From: a virus
IMG/VR virus record: IMGVR_UViG_3300010885_049871
Span: 25,551-89,550 of that record
Length of the DNA stretch: 64,000 nt
Reading direction: 5' to 3' (one strand)
Each line of letters starts with the position of its first letter. Positions within the stretch are counted from its first letter, which is position 1. Under the pieces are notes generated by a model. It made no database searches. It saw nothing but the letters and a program-made list of their open reading frames with translations, and was not told the origin of the DNA. This document shows positions 17,909-61,157 of the stretch, piece by piece. The translations under genes and the position numbers were made by a program.

Positions 17909-18998
17909 ATTAGTAATAGACACAGGATGTGGAATACACGACGAACTCGCAGGGTATGTCGATGATACGTTTTCTAATTTTCAAGAGCACACGCTGATTC
18001 CCAATGCTATATATTTGATAAGTTACGCCGAGACTGAGAAAAATTTTAAAAAAATTGCAAAGTTGGCAACCTCTAACATTATAAAAGTTATTTTTGCTGA
18101 ACCGTCTGAAGGGTCGAGTACTGCAATACATCGTTGTAATCGGCAAAGGTTTCGTACTAAAGCGCCCAATGGAAATGGCCACATTGAACTACTTGAGTTA
18201 ATCAAACAAGGAAAAATATTATTATTAACCGGTGGCGATGTTTCGCCACAATATCCGCATTTGGTGTATGAAAATTTTCTCCCAAAGATACTGGACTATG
18301 ACGAAAATATTGACGCCATACAAATTTATAATAACACCTATTCAACCAACCGACCATATAAATTTTTATTTTTAAACGGAAAAGGAAGACCTCATAGAAA
18401 ATTTATGATCGAACAATTGGCCGACGTACTTGATACAGCACTGTGGAGTAATTTAGATCCTACCAATGGCCCAGTGAAATTACTTGATCAGCAATACGAA
18501 CTTGACCGTTTTAATGTAGACGTGTGTCGGACTGATACAAATGTAAAAGAATACTTGTTTGGGTCCGGTATATGGGGAGAGGTGTATCTAGTCCCGTCGC
18601 AGTATAGCAATACCTATTTTAGCCTGATAACCGAAACTGTTCAGCAATATAACTTCAGTTTCAGAACAGAAAAAACATGGAAACCTATTGCAATCGGGCA
18701 TCCATGGATTGCAGTTGCCAATCAGGGATATTATAGAGATATCCGTAATTTGGGATTTCAAACATTTGGACATGTCATTGACGAAAGTTTTGATGAAATA
18801 GCAAACAATCAAGATAGGATGATGCAAGTAAGTCGTGTTGTTAAAGATTTATGTCAACAAGACCTTGCAAGTTTTTTAAAAGAATGCTATAATGTATGTA
18901 AATACAATCAACAACATATTGCAGAGATGAGAACTCGAGTTCGATCCGAGTTTCCAGAACGCTTCCGACAGTTTATAAACAAACATATCAATGAATGA
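17892..18998 (+). CDS. Glycosyltransferase-like protein with EKTWKPI..GFQTF signature
   Basis: I choose the ATG at 17892 with GGAAGGA 11 bases upstream; longer GTG starts at 17865 or 17883 are possible. The protein has about 368 residues. The signature 'FRTEKTWKPIAIGHPWIAVANQ' plus 'IRNLGFQTFGHVIDESFD' at about residues 260-310 groups it with the genes at 13996, 30920 and 32097. It lies between two radical SAM genes and overlaps both. Local composition is more AT-rich than its neighbours, which may mark separate acquisition. Confidence 0.6.
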   Translation: MLGNRKLVIDTGCGIHDELAGYVDDTFSNFQEHTLIPNAIYLISYAETEKNFKKIAKLATSNIIKVIFAEPSEGSSTAIHRCNRQRFRTKAPNGNGHIELLELIKQGKILLLTGGDVSPQYPHLVYENFLPKILDYDENIDAIQIYNNTYSTNRPYKFLFLNGKGRPHRKFMIEQLADVLDTALWSNLDPTNGPVKLLDQQYELDRFNVDVCRTDTNVKEYLFGSGIWGEVYLVPSQYSNTYFSLITETVQQYNFSFRTEKTWKPIAIGHPWIAVANQGYYRDIRNLGFQTFGHVIDESFDEIANNQDRMMQVSRVVKDLCQQDLASFLKECYNVCKYNQQHIAEMRTRVRSEFPERFRQFINKHINE

Positions 18999-20340
18999 TT
19001 TAGATTTCAAGCACCAGCTGCTGGATACCAAAAGTGCCAGCTTCTGTGCAGCCAAATGGTACAATGCCACCATATGGCTAGGTTCTGGACAAACAACCAG
19101 TTGTCATCATCCACCGGCACACGCCATTGATCTTGAAGAACTAAAAGTTAATCCTTCTGCATTACATAACACAGCAAAAAAGAAAGATGATCGCAAGAAG
19201 ATGTTGGCAGGTGATCGTCCTGCAGGTTGCGAATACTGTTGGAAGATCGAAGACATGGCCACTGATGCTGTCAGTGACCGTGTATATAAAAGTAAAATTT
19301 ACCCTATAAAGGCACTCGATGAAGCTTACCAAACTCCTTACCATGAAGACGTCAATCTTCGCACACTTGAAATTGCGTTCGACCGCACTTGCCAATTTGC
19401 TTGTAGCTATTGTAACCCTGCTTTCAGTAGTACATGGGTTAATGACATTAAAAAGCACGGAGGATATGCCAATCTGGTGTCTGATGGGCGCAATCACTTT
19501 ACTCACACTCACGATAGTGCTCAACTATACCGCTTTGGTGAGACTAATCCGTATGTGGAAGCCTTTTTCAAGTGGTGGGAAACAGATCTTCACCGTACAC
19601 TCCAAGAACTTAGAATAACCGGCGGCGAGCCGCTGATGAGTGGCGAAACCTGGAAACTGATTGATTGGTTCAAAACAAATCAAGGCCGTAGTCAGACTCG
19701 TCTGGCAATTAATTCAAACCTGGGCATGGACCGTGACAAGCTGCACGAATTCGTTGAACGAGTTAGGGATATTCCGCATCTTGAAATTTATACCAGTTGT
19801 GAAGCAACAGGCTCTGCTGCTGAATACATAAGAGACGGCCTGGACTACGACCTATGGATGCACAATGTTCAAGAGTTGTTGGAGCACGATCATATTCGTG
19901 CTGTACATGTGATGTGTACAATCAATGCATTGTGTTTAGAAACATTACCCGAGTTCCTGGCACAATTGGTAAAATTAAAAACCTTGTACGGAACACAACG
20001 AATTAATTTTACGCTAAATATATTACGCTTTCCAAGTTTTCAATCCCCGTTGGTATTATCTCCTGCATTGCTGTCCTCCGCTCGCACTCAGTTGATGATG
20101 TGGGAAGAGTCTGCCAGTAATAGATCAATATGTCAAGAGTTTGAACTGAATCATGTTCGCAGACTGATTGATTATTTGAAAATTGTTAAAACTCCGCACA
20201 GTGACACATTTGACATGCCTAAGTTGCACAACGACTTTCGCCGGTTCTTTGATCAATATGATGTGCGCAGGAACAAAAACTTCAGCAACACATTTCCTAA
20301 ATTAGAATCATGGTACAATGACTTACAAATACAACAGTAG
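18991..20340 (+). CDS. Radical SAM enzyme with N-terminal twitch-like Cys domain
   Basis: A 449-residue protein. The cluster motif is C134, C138 and C141 (RTCQFACSYCNPAFSSTW), with 'RITGGEPLMSGETW' after it. The N-terminal auxiliary cysteines are C19, C38 and C80/C83 (GCEYCW). Domain order and motifs match the enzyme at 16496, so the two are probable duplicates with a glycosyltransferase-like gene between them. It overlaps the next radical SAM gene by 23 bases. Confidence 0.88.
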   Translation: MNDLDFKHQLLDTKSASFCAAKWYNATIWLGSGQTTSCHHPPAHAIDLEELKVNPSALHNTAKKKDDRKKMLAGDRPAGCEYCWKIEDMATDAVSDRVYKSKIYPIKALDEAYQTPYHEDVNLRTLEIAFDRTCQFACSYCNPAFSSTWVNDIKKHGGYANLVSDGRNHFTHTHDSAQLYRFGETNPYVEAFFKWWETDLHRTLQELRITGGEPLMSGETWKLIDWFKTNQGRSQTRLAINSNLGMDRDKLHEFVERVRDIPHLEIYTSCEATGSAAEYIRDGLDYDLWMHNVQELLEHDHIRAVHVMCTINALCLETLPEFLAQLVKLKTLYGTQRINFTLNILRFPSFQSPLVLSPALLSSARTQLMMWEESASNRSICQEFELNHVRRLIDYLKIVKTPHSDTFDMPKLHNDFRRFFDQYDVRRNKNFSNTFPKLESWYNDLQIQQ

Positions 20341-25181: not shown

Positions 25182-25279
25182 ACTGGATTAAAAATTTAAT
25201 TGGCCGTATCCGCTTAGAAATACGCTATCGTAAAAAACTCAAAGAACTTCGCAAACGAGATCCGTTTATCTACAAATGA
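25178..25279 (+). CDS. 33-residue basic peptide, ATGA-coupled on both sides
   Basis: ATG at 25178 overlaps the previous stop; its own stop overlaps the ATG of the carbamoyltransferase. The product (MNWIKNLIGRIRLEIRYRK, ending KELRKRDPFIYK) is an amphipathic, strongly basic helix with a fixed-looking 'RKRDPFIYK' end. I recall similar C-termini on very small phage proteins. The double overlap makes it a real gene. Roles to consider are a small regulatory peptide or a substrate of the adjacent radical SAM enzymes; neither is shown. Confidence 0.75.
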   Translation: MNWIKNLIGRIRLEIRYRKKLKELRKRDPFIYK

Positions 25280-26790
25280 AATTAAAAAAGTATTTGGGAA
25301 TCAGCGCCGGCTATCACGATGCTGCTGTCAGCATGATCGACTCTTACGGATCTGTTCTGTTTGCTGGTCATGCAGAACGCTATAGCAAGAGCAAGAATGA
25401 CGCACACCTAAATGATGAATTAGTGGCAGCAGCACTGAGTCACGGCACACCAGACCAAGTGGTCTACTACGAACGTCCATGGATCAAAAAACTACAACAA
25501 CTTTACTCCGGGCAATATCATGAAGCGTTTGATCTTAATTCTTTTACTCTTGGTCAGTATCTCCGTAAACATCTATCTGCTGGTCCACATCTCAGCACTT
25601 TACTACATGCTGAACACTGTTACACAGGACACCATGCTGCCCACGCCGCCGCGGGATTTCAGACCAGCCCCTACAACAGAGCCACAGTGGTTGTGATAGA
25701 TGCTGTAGGAGAACTAGACACCATAACCATTTGGGGCGCTGAATACAACTCCGCAGGCCGAGCAACTTATAAAAAACTTTGGTCCCGCGGATATCCGCAC
25801 AGTATAGGATTGTTTTACAGTGCAGTCACTGCTCGAGTGGGTCTTAGGCCATTAGACGAAGAATACATTCTAATGGGCATGGCTGCGTACGGACAAAACA
25901 ATATCAGCAATCGACTACGCTACGATCTCGTCGACCATGAATATGAAATTCGGTTTAAAGAAAATTTACACGCAGGGCTCGAAGCCAAGTATCTAAGTGA
26001 TTATTCGGACTTTGACATTGCAGCGGCAGCACAAAGCCTGGCTGAAGATCTTATTTTGAATGTAATGTTTCGTGCAAAAAAATTGGACTGGAGCAACAAT
26101 CTAGTGTATATGGGTGGTGTTGCTCTTAACTGTAGTGCCAATCGACTTATTGGAAATTATTTTGACAATATTTGGATCATGCCAAGCCCGGGCGATAGCG
26201 GCAGCAGTCTTGGTGCCGCAGCATTGGCCCACGGTGGCCGTATTAATTGGACGGACGCTTTCTTGGGTGACAGCATTGGTGGTAAATATCCTGTTAATGC
26301 TATTCTGGACACACTGGTTACAGACCGCATTGTGGGCGTGGCCTCAGGCCGTGCAGAATTTGGGCCGCGAGCACTGGGCAATCGCAGTTTACTAGCAGAT
26401 CCGCGTGGCCCAGATATAAAGGATCAAGTGAATGAGATCAAACGCAGACAACAATTCAGACCATTTGCGCCAGTTATCCTTGAAGAATACGCTGATCAGT
26501 ATTTTGATATGCCTAGGGGTTTCAGCAACAGTAGGTATATGCAGGCAGTCGCTGTCTGCCGCCATCCTGATCTTTTTCCTGCTATTGTGCATCATGATGG
26601 TACTAGTAGAGTGCAGACAGTTCCTGCGGATGGTTCAGGCATTAGAGAACTACTGGAAAAGTGGTTTGTAATGACTGGTTGTCCCATGCTGCTGAACACC
26701 AGTCTTAACATACGCGGAGAGCCCGTGGTAAATGACAGATCCGACGCTGATCGCTTTGAACAATTGTACGGAGTAAAGGTCCATTCATAA
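25276..26790 (+). CDS. O-carbamoyltransferase, NodU/CmcH/TobZ family
   Basis: A 504-residue protein with the family N-terminus 'KYLGISAGYHDAAVSMID', the metal/carbamoyl-adenylate histidines 'HCYTGHHAAHAAAGF' (about 114-128) and the YrdC-like C-terminal core 'GRAEFGPRALGNRSLLADPRG' and 'FRPFAPVI'. Family enzymes use carbamoyl phosphate and ATP to put a carbamoyl group on a sugar or antibiotic hydroxyl. Both domains are present and full length is slightly short of typical. It is coupled to the 33-residue gene upstream and the oxygenase downstream. Confidence 0.9.
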   Translation: MKLKKYLGISAGYHDAAVSMIDSYGSVLFAGHAERYSKSKNDAHLNDELVAAALSHGTPDQVVYYERPWIKKLQQLYSGQYHEAFDLNSFTLGQYLRKHLSAGPHLSTLLHAEHCYTGHHAAHAAAGFQTSPYNRATVVVIDAVGELDTITIWGAEYNSAGRATYKKLWSRGYPHSIGLFYSAVTARVGLRPLDEEYILMGMAAYGQNNISNRLRYDLVDHEYEIRFKENLHAGLEAKYLSDYSDFDIAAAAQSLAEDLILNVMFRAKKLDWSNNLVYMGGVALNCSANRLIGNYFDNIWIMPSPGDSGSSLGAAALAHGGRINWTDAFLGDSIGGKYPVNAILDTLVTDRIVGVASGRAEFGPRALGNRSLLADPRGPDIKDQVNEIKRRQQFRPFAPVILEEYADQYFDMPRGFSNSRYMQAVAVCRHPDLFPAIVHHDGTSRVQTVPADGSGIRELLEKWFVMTGCPMLLNTSLNIRGEPVVNDRSDADRFEQLYGVKVHS

Positions 26791-47622: not shown

Positions 47623-48018
47623 TTATAATTTACAGGTATTTAAAAGGTATATGGCAAAGTTATGCAATTGCGGGGCAAATCTTATTTTGAATGTATATGT
47701 GCCAGGCCAAGCCATATAACCGTATGTACCGGCCTGATGGCAGTTTGTACTATCTGTTACATATAAGCCACATTGATCAATATCATTTATTTTCACTCCG
47801 TTGGCCTGGAGATTACCTACCACAATATGACTCTGACTATCTTCGGGTTTGGTCATGCTGACAGAAACACGCAATTGGGTGCGAGGATTGTACTCAATTT
47901 CGTGCCAATTCAATCCATCCGCAGTCCAGGTCCTGTTGGCCGGGGCTACAGTGTAAGAGATCGGACCGTTGGTGTCATTGACTTGAACGGATAGCAAAAA
48001 CTTTATGTTTGGTTTCAT
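47623..48018 (-). CDS. Beta-rich protein, possible carbohydrate-binding module
   Basis: A 131-residue protein with alternating strands: 'FLLSVQVNDTNGPISYTVAP', 'TQLRVSVSMTKPEDSQSHIVVG', 'VKINDIDQCGLYVTD' and 'AWPGTYTFKIRFAPQLHNFAIYLL'. The pattern resembles the beta-sandwich proteins found beside phage radical SAM genes. A similar protein lies at 49506, so the B12-type radical SAM gene is flanked by two of them. It overlaps that gene by 44 bases. Confidence 0.6.
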   Translation of the reverse strand: MKPNIKFLLSVQVNDTNGPISYTVAPANRTWTADGLNWHEIEYNPRTQLRVSVSMTKPEDSQSHIVVGNLQANGVKINDIDQCGLYVTDSTNCHQAGTYGYMAWPGTYTFKIRFAPQLHNFAIYLLNTCKL

Positions 48019-49495
48019 TATAAATTTTATCTAAACTTTCAATTTCTTTATGGTATTTTTGCAACGGCATTCCGGGCTGGAACGAGTATCCTAGGTCTTG
48101 GGCCAACGTTATCAACTCTTTGAACCGTCGAGATCTTGCTGGATAATCGTTGTCTACATATCGAGTACTGGTCCAAAACTTGTTGTTATGATTACTATGA
48201 TTGTGTTCAATACCGTATTTTTGTGCTATCTCGGAGTCTAGCAATAACGGGCTATTGTTTAGTAACGCAAATGTGGGAGTGATTCCTATAAGTATTCTTT
48301 TGTTCACTGCCAGTGATGCATAATTGATCAACAACTGTTTGGTATCTTTAAAATCTTTTTCGGTCTCGGTTGGGTAGCCAACCATTAATAACCAACTTTG
48401 CACTATGTTGTATTTGTGCAAGGCCCTGACACTCCAATCCAGATCATCATTGTTGAACTTTTTTTTCATATCAAATCTGATTTTTTCACTACCCGACTCA
48501 ACTCCAACACCCCATTGATTGCATCCGGCATCGGCCGCAAGTTTAAAATCTTTGTCAGGCATTTCATCTTTGCCTCTAAAAATAGCATAACCTGAATAAT
48601 TGATAGTTTGCGGTATAGTATCAACCAACACTTCATTCATTTTTCTGTAGTTGCTGATGCTGCCGTTGATCAAATTATCAGTAAACAAAAACTTCTTGAT
48701 TCCAGTGTTTTGGTAATTATGGATGATTTCATTTGCAACTTTAACAGGATCGCGATAGATAAAATCTGGCCAAAAACTACCAACATCACAAAATGTACAT
48801 TGCCTAACACAGCCTTTGCTACCGGTGATAGCCATATAAGGTTCACTGTTTTGATCCTGTTGGTCACGGTATTGACTCAGCGGTTGATAGAACGACAAAT
48901 CATATTGATCCCACGCCGGCACAGGAATATCGTCAAGATCCTGTTTGGTCTGGGGAGCAGAAAAAATCAATCCTGTCTTGCTGTGTTTTAAACTTTCAAT
49001 AATTTCTTTTTCTGCGTCACCTACAATTATCAAATCAGCTATTTGATTAGAAATCCAAATATTATAGTGCTTGACATTGTCGGTGTGGGACACCTCCAGA
49101 CCTTTGCCGCCTGCTATTATCTTAGTCTCGGGCCAATACTTGCGTAACATATAACTCATCAGCATGCCATAATCCAGGCTTTCGGATGTGAAGATGCTGA
49201 GACCTATGTATTCGGGCCGATATTGTTCATGAACTTGTTTGAGAAAATGTTTAGTAAATTTATAAACTTTCTTAAACATTCTCCGACTCAGTGCAGATTT
49301 TATTAGATGACCCAACACCAGTAAATTTTTAAATGCAATAAATTCTGGATCATCGGCCAACTGTGCAAGAAACTTGGCTGAAAAGTCAATGCCAATACTG
49401 TTAATACCAGCCTGATTTAAGCAAGCACTCAACAGGACCGGCGCCACCATTGGATAAGGTTCGCAGTATGGAACAGATAATATTACTACTTTCAT
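47975..49495 (-). CDS. B12-binding-domain radical SAM protein
   Basis: A 506-residue protein. Residues 1-165 have a Rossmann-like cobalamin-binding-type fold ('VVILSVPYCEPYPMVAPVLLSA', 'YIGLSIFTSESLDYGMLMS', 'TKIIAGGKGLEV', 'LIIVGDAE'), without a clear DxHxxG motif. The radical SAM motif is C229, C233, C236 (GCVRQCTFCDVGSFW), followed by 'WGVGVESGSEKIRFDMKK' and 'LLMVGYPTETEKDF'. Family members methylate or rearrange unactivated carbons. The loss of DxHxxG suggests base-off binding without a His ligand. Confidence 0.88.
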   Translation of the reverse strand: MKVVILSVPYCEPYPMVAPVLLSACLNQAGINSIGIDFSAKFLAQLADDPEFIAFKNLLVLGHLIKSALSRRMFKKVYKFTKHFLKQVHEQYRPEYIGLSIFTSESLDYGMLMSYMLRKYWPETKIIAGGKGLEVSHTDNVKHYNIWISNQIADLIIVGDAEKEIIESLKHSKTGLIFSAPQTKQDLDDIPVPAWDQYDLSFYQPLSQYRDQQDQNSEPYMAITGSKGCVRQCTFCDVGSFWPDFIYRDPVKVANEIIHNYQNTGIKKFLFTDNLINGSISNYRKMNEVLVDTIPQTINYSGYAIFRGKDEMPDKDFKLAADAGCNQWGVGVESGSEKIRFDMKKKFNNDDLDWSVRALHKYNIVQSWLLMVGYPTETEKDFKDTKQLLINYASLAVNKRILIGITPTFALLNNSPLLLDSEIAQKYGIEHNHSNHNNKFWTSTRYVDNDYPARSRRFKELITLAQDLGYSFQPGMPLQKYHKEIESLDKIYNETKHKVFAIRSSQ

Positions 49496-50580: not shown

Positions 50581-51666
50581 TTAGGCACTGGCCTGCAAGA
50601 TGTACTTGCCAAAACGCTGGTGGAACTCGTCAAAGTTCTTCAGCTTGGTGGGTTGGAACGGCAGGTTGTATGTGGTCAGGGCAATACGGGCACCCATCAC
50701 AGTCAACTCTGTTTCAAAGTTCTTCATCATGTAGCCTAGGAAGTTGTCGGACATGGCATGGAACTCTTTGTCCGGAATCTTGCGAGCCACTGCATCCTTG
50801 AGCTCGTAGCACATTGAAATTACCAGACTGTACATGGCACTGACTTCTTTGACATCCAGTGTAGTAACCTTGCCGCTCAAGATATCTTCTGGCTTGGGCA
50901 GTCTAGCACTGATCTTGCGGTGCGCCATAAATTTCACAGCAAGACCTTCGCCCACAGTGCCTGCAATCAGGTTGGTCAATGTGTCGGCATCGCCGTCATC
51001 TTCGTCCAACAGCTCGCTTACAAAGGTCCAGGTACGTGGAGTAGCAAAAGCTCGTGAGCTGGACTTGGAGTCAAAGTCATACAGGTCCTGTTTGGCAAAA
51101 CTCAAGTAGCCCACCACATCCTTGTGGATGTTGTTTTGCACCGCCCAGGTCTGGTACGATGCAAAATCCACTTTCATTTCCTGGTGAATGAAACGATTTG
51201 CCAGCGGAGTAGGCATACGATAAGTGACACCTTTGTCGCTTTCCCTGTTGCCTGCAGCCACCAAGACTACATTTTTAGGCAGACGATACTTGCCAATGCG
51301 TCGATTCAGAATAAGTTGATAAGCTGCGGCTTGAACACTAGGTGCGGCCGAATTCAGCTCGTCCAGGAACAGCACCACAATGGGATAGTCCCGGGCCATT
51401 TCTTCGTCAGGCAGTTCAATTGGTGGAGCCCAATCCATCTTGCCCAGTTCTTTGTTGTAGAATGGAATGCCACGAATGTCGGTGGGTTCCATTTGGCCCA
51501 GACGCAGATCGATCATTAGTCCACCAAGTTCTTCGGTAATGCCTTCTACCAATTCGCTTTTGCCAATGCCCGGAGGACCCCACAAGAACAAGGGACGTTT
51601 GGCCCGGAATGCTCGTAGCAAACTTTTACGAGCTTGGGTCGAAGTAACAGTGCGTGAATCTGACAT
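50581..51666 (-). CDS. MoxR-family AAA+ ATPase
   Basis: A 361-residue protein. Walker A GPPGIGKS at residues 30-37, Walker B 'VVLFLDELNSA' at about 97-107, and sensor-type 'VLVAAGNRESD'. 'RMPTPLANRFIHQEM' is the arginine-finger region. MoxR proteins work with VWA partners to remodel proteins or load cofactors; the likely partner is at 45313. AAGGA ribosome site and its own sigma70 promoter. Confidence 0.9.
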   Translation of the reverse strand: MSDSRTVTSTQARKSLLRAFRAKRPLFLWGPPGIGKSELVEGITEELGGLMIDLRLGQMEPTDIRGIPFYNKELGKMDWAPPIELPDEEMARDYPIVVLFLDELNSAAPSVQAAAYQLILNRRIGKYRLPKNVVLVAAGNRESDKGVTYRMPTPLANRFIHQEMKVDFASYQTWAVQNNIHKDVVGYLSFAKQDLYDFDSKSSSRAFATPRTWTFVSELLDEDDGDADTLTNLIAGTVGEGLAVKFMAHRKISARLPKPEDILSGKVTTLDVKEVSAMYSLVISMCYELKDAVARKIPDKEFHAMSDNFLGYMMKNFETELTVMGARIALTTYNLPFQPTKLKNFDEFHQRFGKYILQASA

Positions 51667-52787: not shown

Positions 52788-53609
52788 TTATTGTCCCAGA
52801 CCCAGATGCACTGTTGATGGTCTTTTGACTAAGAATTCTTTGAAAGCAGCTGATTTTAAAATTTCAGTCAACACAGACACAGTATCTTTGGACACTGTGC
52901 TCATGCCCCACAAATCTATAGTCACATAGTGATTGTTGTACTTGCCCGGGGCAAACTGTCCCAGGAATGGCAAACCATAATGATTCTTTGCTGTGGATGC
53001 TGCAATACATTTACCGCCAGCACTGACAACAGCTTCGGCACCATTGGCAATGAAGATCATATCAACATCAGTTCCTGCAATCACAGCAGCCCTTGCAGCA
53101 GCATTGGCTTCGTATGGAATAGTACGAATATTCAGTTTTGGGGAACTATTAGCCACAAGATTGGTCCACGGCGGCAGTGTAACAGGTCCAGACGTTATGG
53201 CCACTTTATAAGTTTGTGTGCCAGTAAGATCTGCCAGGGTGATATTTGTTTTTGCAGGTGAAGTACACAGATAGTGTGTTGTGCTGGCCAGATTAGTGAC
53301 AAATTTAAATGCAGGATAATCTTTCTGTGCCGGGCAAAGACCTGCTGCATCTTGCATATCTCCACCACTCATGACAACAAATGCATTTTCTTGAGTTTTT
53401 GCTCGAATCAATGCATCGTGGCACGATTTAAAAAATTCTTGTTTGACTGTGTGGCCTTTGTTTCGTAGCCCTTCAATTACCGGCATCGACCAGACTTCGG
53501 TACCACCGCCAGGTGGATAATAGTAGTTGAAGTGATAGGTGTCGGCCATTGCGGCAGCGGATGCAACAGCAAATGTAATTGCCGTAAAAAACTTAGAAAA
53601 TTTACTCAT
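52788..53609 (-). CDS. tctC: TTT-family periplasmic solute-binding protein (Bug/TctC)
   Basis: A 273-residue protein with a signal peptide (residues 1-22, AAAMA|D). 'NYYYPPGGGTEVWSMPVIEGL' is the ligand-binding beta-strand/loop of Bug proteins, and 'NITLADLTGTQTYKVAITSGP' the second-lobe entry. It is about 40-50 residues shorter than bacterial TctC. It would deliver carboxylates or similar solutes to the TctA permease encoded just upstream in the same operon. Confidence 0.85.
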   Translation of the reverse strand: MSKFSKFFTAITFAVASAAAMADTYHFNYYYPPGGGTEVWSMPVIEGLRNKGHTVKQEFFKSCHDALIRAKTQENAFVVMSGGDMQDAAGLCPAQKDYPAFKFVTNLASTTHYLCTSPAKTNITLADLTGTQTYKVAITSGPVTLPPWTNLVANSSPKLNIRTIPYEANAAARAAVIAGTDVDMIFIANGAEAVVSAGGKCIAASTAKNHYGLPFLGQFAPGKYNNHYVTIDLWGMSTVSKDTVSVLTEILKSAAFKEFLVKRPSTVHLGLGQ

Positions 53610-53618
53610 AATTTCTCC

Positions 53619-54944
53619 TTAAAAGTTGAGTAATAAAAATCGGAAAATTTCCGATGATACTGACATTGACAAAAGCATGCCAAATATCAGTGCAACGCGA
53701 ACAGAAAACTCTTTTACAAAAAAACCAACCAACACGGAGACCGCAGTCAACGACAGGTACAGGCCAAGTTGTTGGTTGGTTATTCCTTCTGAAACACACA
53801 CCGCTATGCTCAGTGCAATCAGGACGGGATAGATTATCTTGCTCAAGCGAATGTAGAGAGAAATCATATGTTGATAAAACATTCCGGCAACGAACCAATT
53901 GACTACATTGACCAGTACCAGTATCAAAATCAATGGGCCAGCCAGTGCTGCTATCAAATTGAAACTGTTGTTGATTCCAAATCCGCTGCGTTCAGCCAGC
54001 GCCATGATCACTGCTTCGGATGGAATAATGGGCAATGCTAGAAATATCAATGGTATCAACACAGTGATGGCAGCTGAATTGTTGGCAGCTTCTGCAGAAA
54101 TTACTATTTGTTGATTGTTGTTGTTGATCTTTTTTTCAATCACTGCTGCGACCATTGATGATACCGATGTTCCTATCATGGGTACCAAGCCCATCACTGC
54201 ACCTATCACGGATCCACGCAGGGATGACAACACCGGCGGGAATTTTAACAATGTTGCCAAACGGGTCCGCATACCAAACTCATTTGAATTGATGTTGACA
54301 TTCAACAATCTGTGCCTTGCGTGATGCACAATCTCTGGCAACATTAGAAATCCAATGAACACAGGCACAAACGGAATGCCACCTGGCAGAAAATCTGCAG
54401 CAGATAAAAAGTGCTCACGCCTCAAACTGTCGTACCCAATGTGTCCAATCACTAACCCTGCAATTGCAAATGCCAGCGCCAGGATCTTTTGTTTGCTGGC
54501 CGCACTGATCAACAAAATAAGCACAGTTAACAATACCAATCTTGGAGTGTTGTTGATAAAGTACTTCATAAAATCAATATACTGTGTGGCTGCATAGAAA
54601 ATCACAACACCCACAACGGATGCTATCAGACTGGATGTGGCAGTGCCGCTTAGTAATTCTGCGCCACGACCTTGCCTAAATTCGTCATGGCCATACTGCA
54701 CTGCCGGCACACTGGTGATTTCTCCGGCTATGCCATACACAATGGATGGTATGCTGCTGTAATACTGTACTGAAGACATCATCACTGAATAAAATACAAA
54801 CAAATCCACCACTGGTAATCCAAGCAAAACAGGATACAAGATCATTATCCCAGATGCAGGTCCTACTCCGGGGAATACACCAATCACAATGCCGCTGACT
54901 ATGCCAAGCAGTATGATTGGTAACAGATACAGTAACTCTGTCAT
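53619..54944 (-). CDS. tctA: TTT-family large permease subunit TctA
   Basis: A 441-residue membrane protein with about 10-12 hydrophobic segments. The N-terminal 'ILLGIVSGIVIGVFPGVGPASG' is the TctA signature, and a second copy-like 'RGSVIGAVMGLVPMIGTSVSS' follows at about 245-265. The acidic/Pro pattern of the second half is kept. Bacterial TctA is usually near 500 residues. No tctB gene is visible. It sits in the inner membrane. Confidence 0.88.
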   Translation of the reverse strand: MTELLYLLPIILLGIVSGIVIGVFPGVGPASGIMILYPVLLGLPVVDLFVFYSVMMSSVQYYSSIPSIVYGIAGEITSVPAVQYGHDEFRQGRGAELLSGTATSSLIASVVGVVIFYAATQYIDFMKYFINNTPRLVLLTVLILLISAASKQKILALAFAIAGLVIGHIGYDSLRREHFLSAADFLPGGIPFVPVFIGFLMLPEIVHHARHRLLNVNINSNEFGMRTRLATLLKFPPVLSSLRGSVIGAVMGLVPMIGTSVSSMVAAVIEKKINNNNQQIVISAEAANNSAAITVLIPLIFLALPIIPSEAVIMALAERSGFGINNSFNLIAALAGPLILILVLVNVVNWFVAGMFYQHMISLYIRLSKIIYPVLIALSIAVCVSEGITNQQLGLYLSLTAVSVLVGFFVKEFSVRVALIFGMLLSMSVSSEIFRFLLLNF

Positions 54945-56077
54945 TTGATTTTGTACTCCTGTGAACTGACCGCATAGTATGATTGCACTGATTGCTGGTC
55001 TGAAGACAACAGTCCCATCCGCACCATGTATGATATCAGTGTTTGGTCTGTTTGTAAAATATGCCAGCCGTTGATGTATTTTTTTACAGCAGAAGATTGA
55101 CGCTGCAATCCTGACAGCAATGGCAAGCTGGTAGAATTTTTTGATAGTTGGTACAACACTGAAGCTGAAATTTCTTTTGAAAAATCAATTGATTTCACTA
55201 TACTGTCATGCCCGGCATTGATTTGTTTTTCCATTTGACTAATTCCCGGTATTACCTCCGGATCGCGACCTTGTACTGCACACTTTAAATAGTAATTTTC
55301 TGGTTTTTCTAATTCTGTCAGCGATGTATTGGTCCTTAGACAATAGTTCAACATCATATGACACTGTTTGGCATGCAGTTCTGGCATGTCAGGAGATATA
55401 AAAAAGAACTCTAGGTCGCTGCGATTTAGTGCGCCAGCAAATAAGCGGTCGGAAAATCCAAAGTAATAGCCGTCTTTGCGCTGAACCAACTGGGGCTTTT
55501 CAAAGCCCACAATTGTGCAGTAGTTATAATTGTTGTAGGATTGATCAAAATTGTCTTGATGCAGCACAGGCCGGCAGTATTTGACCAATTGATGTCTGAG
55601 ATTTTTATCATCGTTTACCATGTAATCTTCTGACGAAAGTTGTTTTTCGTATCCAAGAATATCGTCGTGAGTATGTACTGATTTAATATTGATTTTTGTA
55701 GTCTTGTCTGGATGATTTTCCAACAACCAGGTCACTGCTTTTTCTGGTATTAAATTGTCAACGCCGGATCGTGCGTAACAAATGTAAATCTCATCTAGGT
55801 GTATGTTGTTGCGTAGAAAGGTGTTGTATATGGTGATTGAGTCAGTGCCACCACTGAATGCCAGTGTAAGTTTATCATATCTGTTTCTCAATTGATGTGC
55901 TCGTCTGTCACACAGTGTTTGAAAACTTTCCGCTGGTTCTATGGTCCAGTCAACCGTGGCAAACTCACGGTCGTAGAACTCAAATTTTGGAAATGTATGA
56001 GGATCGTGTATGGACCCGTGCAGGAATGCCGTGAACGGATTGTCAAATTTTATTCCATTGATATTGTAATAAACCAT
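54941..56077 (-). CDS. PP-loop ATPase, asparagine-synthase-like
   Basis: A 378-residue protein. 'LTLAFSGGTDSITIYNTFL' at about residues 90-108 is the PP-loop SGGxDS. There is no N-terminal Cys glutaminase domain, so any amide nitrogen would come from elsewhere. 'YNYCTIVGFEKPQL' and 'FGFSDRLFAGA' follow as in phage and bacterial relatives. ATGA-coupled to tctA, so it may act on the imported substrate by adenylation. Its own promoter lies upstream. Confidence 0.8.
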   Translation of the reverse strand: MVYYNINGIKFDNPFTAFLHGSIHDPHTFPKFEFYDREFATVDWTIEPAESFQTLCDRRAHQLRNRYDKLTLAFSGGTDSITIYNTFLRNNIHLDEIYICYARSGVDNLIPEKAVTWLLENHPDKTTKINIKSVHTHDDILGYEKQLSSEDYMVNDDKNLRHQLVKYCRPVLHQDNFDQSYNNYNYCTIVGFEKPQLVQRKDGYYFGFSDRLFAGALNRSDLEFFFISPDMPELHAKQCHMMLNYCLRTNTSLTELEKPENYYLKCAVQGRDPEVIPGISQMEKQINAGHDSIVKSIDFSKEISASVLYQLSKNSTSLPLLSGLQRQSSAVKKYINGWHILQTDQTLISYMVRMGLLSSDQQSVQSYYAVSSQEYKIK

Positions 56078-56145
56078 TGGCAGTTTTACTGTATTCGGGG
56101 CGATTGCTTGTAGAAGAACTCTACTTACGGTAGGCGTTCTGTTAT

Positions 56146-56175
56146 ATTATAACAGTAAAGACATTGCTATGTCAA
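56146..56175 (-). promoter_or_regulatory. Sigma70-type promoter of the PP-loop/tctA/tctC operon
   Basis: TTGACA, 18 bases, TATAAT on the minus strand. The leader is about 65 bases. Confidence 0.8.
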
Positions 56176-56251
56176 GCGTCAATTGGTGATCCGACGTCAA
56201 CAGATTGTTGGCGTTGCTAATGTTATTTATATCAACCGCATACGAATGGCC

Positions 56252-56276
56252 AAAAAAAAGGCTACCGAAGTAGCCT
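56252..56276 (-). terminator. Rho-independent terminator of the porin gene
   Basis: AGGCTAC-TTCG-GTAGCCT stem followed by eight T on the minus strand, 21 bases after the porin stop. Confidence 0.9.
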
Positions 56277-56296
56277 TTGTGTCCAATCGTGTTGGA

Positions 56297-57136
56297 TTAG
56301 AACGAGTGTGATACACGAACACGATATGTGTCGGTATTGTTGGCAGCAGTTGTGTTGCTGCTGACTTGTGCCACGGCCAATTGAACTGAAGTTCTCTTGC
56401 TCAATGCATACTCAGCGCCAACCTCTTTGGCAGTGCCATTACCATCAGAATATGCAGCGCCCACAGTCACAGCACCTACAGTGTAGGAAGCACCTACCAC
56501 ATAGGAGTCGGCAACATTGCGTTCATTGCGACTGACACCTGCACCAACTGTGATGCCTTTTACAACAACTTTGGCACTGGCGCGAACCCGCTCAGTTGTT
56601 TGGTTGTAATCAACAGCACTGCTGACTGGGCCAACTGTGTAAGTTGCACCAAACACATTTTTGTTTGTGCCGGTGTTGTTGATGGCTCTAGTGTTGCTGA
56701 CTTTGAATGCCAGTCCCGACACTGTGGGTGTTGTGTAGCTGACAGATTGCACATTGGACTTGGCGCCCAACACAACTCCGTCTTGACCTATAACCGGTGC
56801 ATCACCTAGCCCAAGACCAATGATGCCATTGGCAGATTCAATTTGACCAACTTTGACTGAACCAACCGGAGTTGCAACATCAACATACATGTCGTTACCT
56901 TCGGCAGCAGTGCCGTTTCCGCCTGGCTGAATTTCTGCATAGGCCTTGACAGTTATGCCATTGCCAATGGATTCTGTAGCAGTAAAGTTGATATTGCTGG
57001 TGTCCATTGGAGACATTGTGGTTACGGTGTTGTCTGACCGCTTGATGTCGTATGCAAGTTTTCCGCCAATTTTAAACTGGGCGTGAGCTGTACCTAATGC
57101 AGCCAAAATTGCTACTGCGACTAATGCTTTTTTCAT
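56297..57136 (-). CDS. Gram-negative outer-membrane porin
   Basis: A 279-residue protein with a typical betaproteobacterial signal peptide (MKKALVAVAILAALGTAHAQ). Mature sequence is made of short amphipathic beta strands and Gly/Asn turns, and ends in 'TYRVRVSHSF', a C-terminal Phe beta-signal for the BAM complex. 'TPVGSVKVGQIESANGIIG' is the classic trimeric-porin motif. It is about 70-100 residues shorter than host porins, so it may have fewer strands or trimmed loops. Monocistronic, with its own terminator. Confidence 0.92.
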   Translation of the reverse strand: MKKALVAVAILAALGTAHAQFKIGGKLAYDIKRSDNTVTTMSPMDTSNINFTATESIGNGITVKAYAEIQPGGNGTAAEGNDMYVDVATPVGSVKVGQIESANGIIGLGLGDAPVIGQDGVVLGAKSNVQSVSYTTPTVSGLAFKVSNTRAINNTGTNKNVFGATYTVGPVSSAVDYNQTTERVRASAKVVVKGITVGAGVSRNERNVADSYVVGASYTVGAVTVGAAYSDGNGTAKEVGAEYALSKRTSVQLAVAQVSSNTTAANNTDTYRVRVSHSF

Positions 57137-57182
57137 TGTGTATTTCCTTTGTAAGTGTGAAGGGGCAGAATTGCCACTGGAG

Positions 57183-57190
57183 TATTTATT
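57183..57190 (-). promoter_or_regulatory. NATAAATA late-promoter-like motif upstream of porin
   Basis: AATAAATA on the minus strand about 46 bases before the porin ATG. No sigma70 -35/-10 pair is evident there, so late expression is suggested. Confidence 0.5.
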
Positions 57191-57341: not shown

Positions 57342-57623
57342 ATGAAACAACTTATTGCTATTATCGCTACACTCGCTACCGCCACTGCATTTGCCCAGGC
57401 TCCTGCTGCTGCACCTGCTGCTGCAAAACCGGCTGCTCCTGCTGCTGCGCCTGCTGCTCCGGCCGCCGCTGCTCCTGCTGCCAAGAAAGAAGAAGCCAAA
57501 CCTGCTGCTAAGAAAGAAGAAGCCAAGAAGCCAGCTGCTAAGAAAGAAGAAGCCAAGCCTGCCAAAAGTGCACCGGCTGTCGACGCAAAAGCAGCAACTC
57601 CAGCTGCACCAGCAAGCAAGTAA
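57342..57623 (+). CDS. Secreted Ala/Pro/Lys-rich low-complexity protein
   Basis: A 93-residue protein with a signal peptide (MKQLIAIIATLATATAFAQ) and an AAGGA ribosome site. The mature part is Ala/Pro runs followed by three repeats of 'AKKEEAKPA'. Very similar proteins are common in Comamonadaceae, so host origin is likely. It may be periplasmic and basic. A further open stretch in the +1 frame (57622-57801) follows immediately and shares the same terminator. Confidence 0.75.
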   Translation: MKQLIAIIATLATATAFAQAPAAAPAAAKPAAPAAAPAAPAAAAPAAKKEEAKPAAKKEEAKKPAAKKEEAKPAKSAPAVDAKAATPAAPASK

Positions 57624-57834: not shown

Positions 57835-57863
57835 GACCGCACTCCAATACTGTACAAATAAGT

Positions 57864-57890
57864 CAAAAAAATAGGACCCGAAGGTCCTAT
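57864..57890 (-). terminator. Rho-independent terminator of the tmRNA gene
   Basis: ATAGGACC-TTCG-GGTCCTAT stem followed by a run of T on the minus strand, about 45 bases after the tag stop codon. Confidence 0.85.
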
Positions 57891-58215
57891 TTACTATTTT
57901 CTGTTTCTAAGCATAGTTGCTCAAAGCAGTGTTTAGACTGCTAAGGAGTGGCGTTGTGCTGTACGAGCAGAGAACTTGACGTTCTTACCTGAAACAGTTA
58001 CTTCACCTGTATTTGCGTTTGCATTTACGGTTTTTGTGTCTACGGCCGAAATACTCCGACCCTACGGCTTCTACATTGCCGGACTGTCCATTTCCGTACT
58101 CTTGACCCAATCGATAGCCTGGTCATCCCCACCTAAATATACCTTATACACTTAGGTGGAGATGGTGGGAGTCGAACCCACGTCTTGAATCCTTTTCTGT
58201 CTACTTCATACAGTC
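57891..58215 (-). ncRNA. ssrA: Permuted two-piece tmRNA with a 29-residue tag
   Basis: On the minus strand the T-arm (GTGGG-TTCGACT-CCCAC) and 3' acceptor strand CATCTCC-A-CC come first (to 58154). A short AT-rich loop follows, then the 5' acceptor strand GGGGATG at 58130. Acceptor pairing includes the G3-U70 wobble required for alanine charging, and the discriminator is A. The tag frame runs 58022-57933: resume codon GCA preceded by GTAAAT, as in betaproteobacterial tmRNA, then ANANTGEVTV... to ...RHSLAV and TAA. A NATAAATA motif at 58224 and a terminator at 57864 delimit the gene. Confidence 0.88.
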
Positions 58216-58223
58216 TTAACTTG

Positions 58224-58231
58224 TATTTATT
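58224..58231 (-). promoter_or_regulatory. NATAAATA late-promoter-like motif upstream of tmRNA
   Basis: AATAAATA on the minus strand directly after the stop of the sulfotransferase-like gene. It would start the acceptor piece near 58217. Confidence 0.5.
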
Positions 58232-58894
58232 TTACTTCTGCAGATACTGTTTTATTCTTGCTACAGTAGCATCTTTGTCCACATCAACAGTGCTGTCAAA
58301 CTTGCAGTATACATCAAGCAACTGGCTAAGATTTTCAACCAAATCATACTTGTTCACTGACATGGGCTTGGGCCACGGTGTGTCAAACTGTTGAGTTGGT
58401 AAGTTCACAGCATTGTAAAATGCCTGTGCATTTTGTGTATGCACATGAAACAACAGAGGTATCATGTCACTGTGAGTTTGCTGTTGCCATTGAGATACGG
58501 CACAATCTCTGTTGTGGTTTGCTTCCAATAGACCAAGGAACTGACCTGGGTCAATGGTAAATTTTGTATTTTGATATTTTTCTCGGTATTCTGCCAGGTC
58601 TTGGTCACTGCCCATATGATGTTTGTTTGTGTGTTCAGCAACAAAATGGCTCAGTGCTGAATCAAAATAATTTCTTCTACACCAAAGCCTGGTGAACTCA
58701 GGCGGTGCTGTGACAAACACTTCAAACTGATGTGTGTGTTGAATTGTCAATGACCAATCGGGAATAGCATTACCGGCGCTCCAACTTACATATGAAGACG
58801 TTTCTTCAAGAGATCTTGGTACAGCAGCGTCTAGCCATAGTGCATAAATGGTAGAACCGGTTCTACCATTTATTCCGACAATAAATTTTTGCAT
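58232..58894 (-). CDS. Sulfotransferase-like P-loop protein
   Basis: A 220-residue protein. The N-terminal 'FIVGINGRTGSTIYALWLD' is the 5'-phosphosulfate-binding loop pattern of sulfotransferases (GRTGST). 'LWCRRNYFDSALSHFVAEH' resembles the 3'-phosphate-binding 'RNP..S..S' block. It would transfer sulfate from PAPS to a sugar or peptide hydroxyl. It is located between tRNA genes and the tmRNA. The assignment rests on motif pattern alone. Confidence 0.6.
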   Translation of the reverse strand: MQKFIVGINGRTGSTIYALWLDAAVPRSLEETSSYVSWSAGNAIPDWSLTIQHTHQFEVFVTAPPEFTRLWCRRNYFDSALSHFVAEHTNKHHMGSDQDLAEYREKYQNTKFTIDPGQFLGLLEANHNRDCAVSQWQQQTHSDMIPLLFHVHTQNAQAFYNAVNLPTQQFDTPWPKPMSVNKYDLVENLSQLLDVYCKFDSTVDVDKDATVARIKQYLQK

Positions 58895-59989: not shown

Positions 59990-60018
59990 ATTATATAACA
60001 GTTGACCAACAGTGTCAA
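59990..60018 (-). promoter_or_regulatory. Consensus sigma70 promoter for the Ser/Asn/Thr tRNA block
   Basis: TTGACA, 17 bases, TATAAT on the minus strand: both hexamers perfect. The -35 overlaps the radical SAM stop codon. Confidence 0.88.
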
Positions 60019-61157
60019 CTGATATTCGCCTGCGGAAACACCGCTAGGTAATTGGTGCCTCTAATGTCGTCCAGTAGGTCAATGTAGTCTTTAAACTTGC
60101 GATACAACTCAGCATCATAACCAGCAGAGTCAATCATGCCTACAATCAATGATCTCTGGCTGTGGTCAATGTCAGTGCTGGACTCTGCCCAGGACTTAAA
60201 CGGCACCAGATGATCTACCGGCACTGAGTGCAAGCTCAAATGCGGATATCCAGATATTGTGGTAATATGCACACGCAGGCTCTGCAGTTTTGCAAATGCC
60301 ATCAGGTCCGGCAGCGCATACGCACTGGTGTGTTGCAGCACATGATTGACGGTTAGTCTTGCCTGTGGCAATTGTTGTTTGAGCAGTTGAATATTTGATT
60401 CAATATCACTCCACCGACTTGGATGTCTGACATAATCATTCATTGCACCGGTACCTTCTAGGCTGATACAGATCTCTATGTCTTTAAATTTTTGCAATGT
60501 AGTCAACAGTTTATTACCAACTTCGGTTAGATTAGTGTTAAAGCTCACAACAACATCGTTGCATCGAGGCATCAACATTTGTAAGAAGTTGACCACTTCA
60601 GGAATGATAAACGGTTCACCACCTGTGATGTTTACTCTACGAACATCGGTTGTCAGCACAGTCTGTGCAAACTGTTTGAATTCTTCATCTTTCCAGTAGT
60701 ACGGCATGTCGCCCACTGCGTTCTGAGCACCAATTTTTACAAAACGATCGTGATATTTGACACGTTCTGCGGCAATACTAGAACTTGATGCTGGGCCACA
60801 CATGATGCATTTGAGATTGCAAAAATTGCCTAGTCTTAGTTCTAAATCATAGATTGGATTGTCTGCACTGACGGCTGTGACATCCGAAGGATACCATTTA
60901 TTTTGGTGTTGTCTTAGACTAGTCCAGCCATGTTGTTCTTCTCTATAGCATTTAACACATCCTGCATGCGGTCGGCCAGCAGCCGCATCTGCTTGCATCT
61001 TTGTAGGTATATCTGCTAGATACTGATCAAACTTGGTGTAATGATGTTTAGTTTTTATTTTAAAATCTTGGTCATACTGACAACATGGCTCAATTGTGCC
61101 GTTGGCATTTACACAAATACTATGATAAGCGGCCTGACAGCTGGTCGAAGTTGACAT
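60015..61157 (-). CDS. Radical SAM enzyme with N-terminal twitch-like Cys domain
   Basis: A 380-residue protein. N-terminal cysteines C15, C25, C26 (EPCCQYD) and C67/C70 (GCVKCYREEQHG) precede the core motif C113, C117, C120 (FCNLKCIMCGPASSSSIAAE). 'NITGGEPFIIPEV' is the SAM site. It lies alone between two tRNA blocks, far from the main radical SAM array but with the same domain order. A GCTAAATA box is upstream. Confidence 0.9.
   Translation of the reverse strand: MSTSTSCQAAYHSICVNANGTIEPCCQYDQDFKIKTKHHYTKFDQYLADIPTKMQADAAAGRPHAGCVKCYREEQHGWTSLRQHQNKWYPSDVTAVSADNPIYDLELRLGNFCNLKCIMCGPASSSSIAAERVKYHDRFVKIGAQNAVGDMPYYWKDEEFKQFAQTVLTTDVRRVNITGGEPFIIPEVVNFLQMLMPRCNDVVVSFNTNLTEVGNKLLTTLQKFKDIEICISLEGTGAMNDYVRHPSRWSDIESNIQLLKQQLPQARLTVNHVLQHTSAYALPDLMAFAKLQSLRVHITTISGYPHLSLHSVPVDHLVPFKSWAESSTDIDHSQRSLIVGMIDSAGYDAELYRKFKDYIDLLDDIRGTNYLAVFPQANIS

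Follow-up and report, generated by a model that had tools for sequence, protein, structure and literature searches.

Auxiliary genes of phages usually alter enzymes or one inner-membrane transporter. The Lc porin of lambdoid phage PA-2 is a phage-encoded outer-membrane porin that serves superinfection exclusion by replacing the receptor. A cassette of the order glnK-amtB-ompL, in which a virus-encoded porin lies beside an inner-membrane nutrient transporter, has been described on marine viral contigs and traced by its authors to Bacteroidetes (PMC8115048). Viral contigs of SUP05 phages carry tctA, seen there as a protein domain hit only, in a text that mentions no porin (PMC4164917). The locus analyzed here lies in a window of 64,000 nucleotides, the end part of an 89,550-bp IMG/VR record, and also places a porin gene next to a nutrient transporter on virus contigs, this being TctA in the window and in two relatives (G001 and G003) and AmtB in another (L111).

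A porin gene carried by phages

The porin matches the Pfam family Porin_4 (E 5.6e-26, 92.5 bits with a cut-off of 27), and its residues 7-262 align with positions 1-309 of the 310 in the profile. An initial annotation, made from the letters of the DNA, had described a signal-peptide-bearing, Phe-ending and notably short porin, and all three features hold. The N-terminus (MKKALVAVAILAALGTAHA, followed by Q) reads as a signal peptide of residues 1-19 with cleavage after AHA, the C-terminus is ...RVRVSHSF with Phe as the last residue, and the mature protein would have 260 residues compared with 312-360 in the closest solved relatives. A profile built from eight phage porins spans the full length of PorB (E 6.7e-21) and most of Omp32 (E 2e-14), and it is from these matches that we propose a 16-strand porin barrel, with the strands assigned by eye and the porin aligned with PorB over its whole length. 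AlphaFold2 with one or three sequences as input gave a pLDDT of 34, too low for a usable model. The segments of residues 102-128 and 232-236, which we read as loops L3 and L7, are well conserved in G003 and are among the most conserved of the protein, and the remaining putative loops are short. Comparison with the G001 gene gives a dN of 0.034 and a dS of 0.345, a ratio of about 0.10 that resembles those of other phage genes, including structural ones; by this measure the porin is under purifying selection.

The nearest porins are 94% identical on contigs of 340 kb and 107 kb, 74% identical on L111 and 49% identical on a 67.7-kb contig. An ORF-by-ORF comparison shows most of the window record, and most of the 67.7-kb record, to be collinear with the 340-kb contig, which has the same gene and encodes a portal, tail sheath, tail tube, DNA polymerase, UvsX-like recombinase and DnaB-like helicase. 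The porin had no match among INPHARED phages or plasmids, and none was found in chromosomal genome contigs using short exact peptide patterns, which distant chromosomal relatives could escape. Since the nearest relatives lie on phage contigs, and those with 94% (G001) and 49% (G003) identity have collinear flanks, we conclude from the sequences that the porin is a phage gene, as the initial annotation had supposed. That annotation had also named host contamination as the alternative, to be recognized by relatives that are only chromosomal and share identical flanks, and close relatives were found only on phage contigs. Misassembly or misbinning that put host DNA into a phage contig is ruled out for practical purposes, its probability being negligible, since this gene is surrounded by collinear phage sequence in both G001 and G003 and the 340-kb contig has hallmark phage genes. 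A betaproteobacterial host is plausible only.

Other genes of the window include three for radical SAM proteins, at 47975-49495(-), 60015-61157(-) and 18991-20340(+), and one for a Nol-like carbamoyltransferase at 25276-26790(+) (phrog_1601, E 4.7e-90).

Transcription signals and the adjoining transporter operon

Table 1. Features of the porin locus, with positions in the window.
Feature	Position	Strand	Remarks
Permuted tmRNA	57842..58246	-	Upstream of porin
T4-late-type promoter element, AATAAATAC	57182..57190	-	54 nt before porin start; same place in G001 and L111
Porin ribosome-binding site, AAGGAAA	57143..57149	-	Read by eye
Porin coding sequence	56297..57136	-	279 aa, ATG start, Porin_4 family; from ORF list and whole-length profile match
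Porin intrinsic terminator, UUCG tetraloop hairpin and T run	56249..56278	-	GGCTAC-TTCG-GTAGCC
Second late-type element, TATAAATAA	56223..56231	-	Upstream of TctA operon
Perfect sigma-70 promoter, TTGACA-18-TATAAT	56146..56175	-	TctA operon; TG before -10
Palindrome over -10, CTGTTATA-A-TATAACAG	56139..56155	-	One place each in window record, G001 and G003
Leader hairpin, GTAGA-GTTCT-TCTAC	56110..56124	-	Both stem sides changed in G004
PP-loop (SGGTDS) ATP-pyrophosphatase-like protein	54941..56077	-	378 aa
TctA permease	53619..54944	-	441 aa; PF01970, E 1.1e-48; overlaps PP-loop gene end
Secreted TctC-like solute-binding protein	52788..53609	-	273 aa; without Pfam match
AAA ATPase	50581..51666	-	Conserved phage marker flanking the locus on the other side

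The porin and the TctA operon are separate transcription units in the window. The terminator that had been ascribed to the porin itself lies after the stop codon as expected; the 61-nt stretch that contains it folds 5.3 SD below shuffled sequences, and a like hairpin is found 3' of the porin in G001, L111 and G003. Elements of the form ATAAATA/TAAATAC, which we take to be close to the T4 late promoter, are strongly enriched in front of genes in G001, where 52 of 99 sites fall within 100-nt upstream regions and 5 would be expected. Because a perfect sigma-70 promoter is found only at the operon, the timing of the two units may differ, and the palindrome that overlies its -10 element is a possible operator. 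The leader of the TctA operon is nearly invariant across the window, G001 and G003, though their porins differ by half. In G004 (L035 2314-3360 and 3413-3435), this leader precedes a gene for a TauD-like dioxygenase and carries the stem changes listed in Table 1.

The transporter genes that were reported to adjoin the porin are confirmed by the TctA match, and the genes for the PP-loop protein, TctA and the binding protein appear to make up one operon. No match to PF07331 (TctB) was obtained in G000, G001 or G003. The binding protein has no PF03401 match in G000 and is weakly TctC-like, the indications being a collinear hhalign alignment to TctC (probability 9.4, E 0.0034) and a PPGGGTE motif seen by eye. 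Against TctA proteins encoded on plasmids, that of the phage reaches an identity of about 31% at most. Porin, TctA and binding protein occur together in the window, G001 and G003 despite a porin identity of 49%. TctA with a secreted protein and a PP-loop protein recurs in G033, G037, G048 and G015, and because the TctA proteins there are only 25-29% identical to that of the window, the three-gene module must be old. The same set, with the PP-loop motif in the form SGGxDS (window 52788-56077(-); L138, L144-L147), is seen in very divergent jumbo phages. In addition, G001 has a PstS (NCBIfam, E 2.5e-118; L028 12425-13426(-)) and a canonical TctC (PF03401, E 3e-24; L015 2643-3596(+)), each apart from the porin locus.

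Porins and import partners in related phages

Searches for relatives with porin, TctA and binding-protein patterns reached three contigs only; the AAA marker gave far more, 544 relatives, of which 80 were kept. Among 48 long records, Porin_4 is present in five, a TorF porin in three and TctA in four, and neither porin family is present in 40, many of these records being fragments. The initial annotation had pointed to related phages as a place to look for porin genes, and the survey together with window/G001, G003 and L111, near-copies being counted once, yields ten distinct porin-bearing phages: window/G001, L111, G003, G006, G014, G018/G019, G033, G004, G035 and G049. In seven of the ten (window/G001, G006, G014, G018/G019, G004, G035 and G049) the porin lies no more than 1.5 kb downstream of the tmRNA, and in three of those seven (G004, G035 and G049) it is of the TorF family in place of Porin_4. 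A general enrichment of barrels after the tmRNA was considered and dropped, several such regions having been chosen for having a porin; AAA-selected loci with the tmRNA in view have a barrel there in one lineage only.

The import partners vary among these phages. In L111, genes for PII (glnK) and AmtB (PF00909, E 4e-99) are followed 116 nt on by the 74% identical porin, and this is the one AmtB among 49 records. In G014, Porin_4 has in its vicinity a PP-loop gene and one for a secreted protein that looks like a binding protein, without TctA in the fragment. G037 (343 kb) has TctA and lacks Porin_4, and a small Phe-ending secreted protein comes directly before its binding protein and TctA. Porin_4 is present without TctA or AmtB in G018 and G019 (286 and 364 kb), the porin regions of which look identical; the porin of G033 is far from TctA, and that of G006 has no nearby transporter. 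In G003, an 822-aa hybrid sensor histidine kinase with a CHASE domain is encoded directly before the porin (L004 7416-9884(+)).

The tag predicted for the tmRNA itself has an unusual length of 27-29 aa (ANANTGEVTVSGKNVKFSARTAQRHSLAV), and its protein sequence is conserved in several relatives (L053, L137, L142, L042), the tags of other relatives being of the ordinary size of about 10 aa. Between porin and tmRNA, on the opposite strand, 57342-57623(+) encodes a 93-aa Ala/Pro/Lys-rich protein with a signal peptide. Directly after the tmRNA in two other loci are genes for short secreted Phe-ending proteins of 183-184 aa (L143 4857-5411(-), L144 5948-6499(-)), which are perhaps small barrels, the OMP_b-brl match of the L143 protein being weak (E 0.014).

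Proposed role of the locus and known systems

We lean towards a role in which the phage porin opens the outer membrane to small solutes and so feeds phage-encoded inner-membrane importers. The porin, by its profile matches a compact porin for general diffusion in the class of PorB and Omp32, would be expressed during infection from a transcription unit that belongs to the phage and, after export, enter the outer membrane of the host, where it would raise permeability to small solutes. In the window, these solutes would pass to the TctC-like binding protein and then to the TctA permease, and the acid so imported may be a substrate of the PP-loop enzyme of the same operon; for L111, they would pass to the ammonium channel AmtB with GlnK. 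This role is favored because importer partners recur and are exchangeable. The initial annotation had offered both superinfection exclusion and solute entry for the TTT transporter, and it is the latter that is now better supported, as the operon link recurs and the partner in L111 is GlnK-AmtB, although the coupling of porin and transporter is not obligatory, since large relatives have the porin without TctA. Speaking against this role as well are G037 with TctA and no Porin_4, the distance between the two genes in G033 and the possibly different timing of the porin and operon units. It should be noted that the conserved neighbors in collinear phages are partly a matter of shared descent.

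Room is left for exclusion or for envelope upkeep because the porins of G018/G019 and G006 are without partners and because two porin families occupy one place. In superinfection exclusion, or receptor masking, the phage porin would displace the major porin of the host or form trimers with it, and competitors would lose their receptor. The porins of G006, G018 and G019 without a nearby transporter agree with this, as do the unrelated barrel families found in the same place after the tmRNA (TorF in G004, G035 and G049) and the short mature protein with its short putative external loops, which are expected if receptor epitopes are missing. However, importers repeatedly adjoin the porin and a 74% identical porin has a different one, variability in the predicted external loops scarcely exceeds that in the strands (46% and 50% identity to G003, respectively), and L3 and L7, as we read these segments, rank among the best conserved, so that we regard exclusion as unlikely. 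Envelope upkeep, in which a spare porin with no specific partner would maintain general permeability in a long infection after host expression is shut down, would account for porins without linked transporters, for the occupation of one place by either of two porin families and for the late-type promoter element. Yet it leaves the recurrent importer neighbors unexplained, neither porin family was found in most of the records surveyed, fragmentary as many of them are, and we consider it rather improbable. Porins are common host genes, and the porin might be a host-derived passenger of no use to the phage; this we judge highly improbable given the low dN/dS ratio, the conserved terminator and promoter element, and the retention of the porin with its neighbors across divergence down to 49% identity.

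Extending the role in solute entry to the family, we put forward tentatively, and at somewhat less than even chances, that these jumbo phages keep an exchangeable envelope-import locus near the tmRNA. Such a locus would join an outer-membrane porin, whether Porin_4, TorF or a small barrel, to one of two full lines of import: GlnK with AmtB, or TctA and its binding protein, lacking TctB, together with the PP-loop enzyme. Phage promoters and a strongly conserved leader would govern it, and the infected cell would receive from the phage an uptake path that spans the outer and the inner membrane in full. The transporters swapped between related viruses suggest a rebuilding of the nutrient intake of the infected cell. 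The locus is a testable case of outer-membrane permeability limiting infected cells, and it provides compact porins and TctA systems lacking TctB as a set found in nature.

Compared with the usual auxiliary genes, the outer-membrane step would here also be supplied by the phage, and one porin type goes with two different importers. Lc of PA-2 is likewise a phage-encoded outer-membrane porin, but its phage is temperate and lambdoid and its type enterobacterial. The phage porin resembles the general porins PorB (4aui, neisserial) and Omp32 (1e54), both of the Porin_4 type, in profile match, signal peptide and C-terminal Phe, a likeness known from sequence, and differs in being phage-encoded and about 50-70 residues shorter. 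With the tripartite tricarboxylate transporters (TctABC), the window shares the TctA permease and a secreted binding protein, but no TctB was found, its binding protein is below Pfam detection and its operon includes a PP-loop enzyme. As in the SUP05 phages, tctA is on viral contigs (PMC4164917). The closest precedent is the marine cassette, with which L111 shares the glnK-amtB-porin order, so that the general idea was already known (PMC8115048); the likeness is one of gene content and order, the porin here is of the Porin_4 type and belongs to a jumbo-phage family, and the window has a TctA system in place of AmtB. As far as the literature searched shows, it is the TctA form, the PP-loop partner and the jumbo-phage locus that are new.
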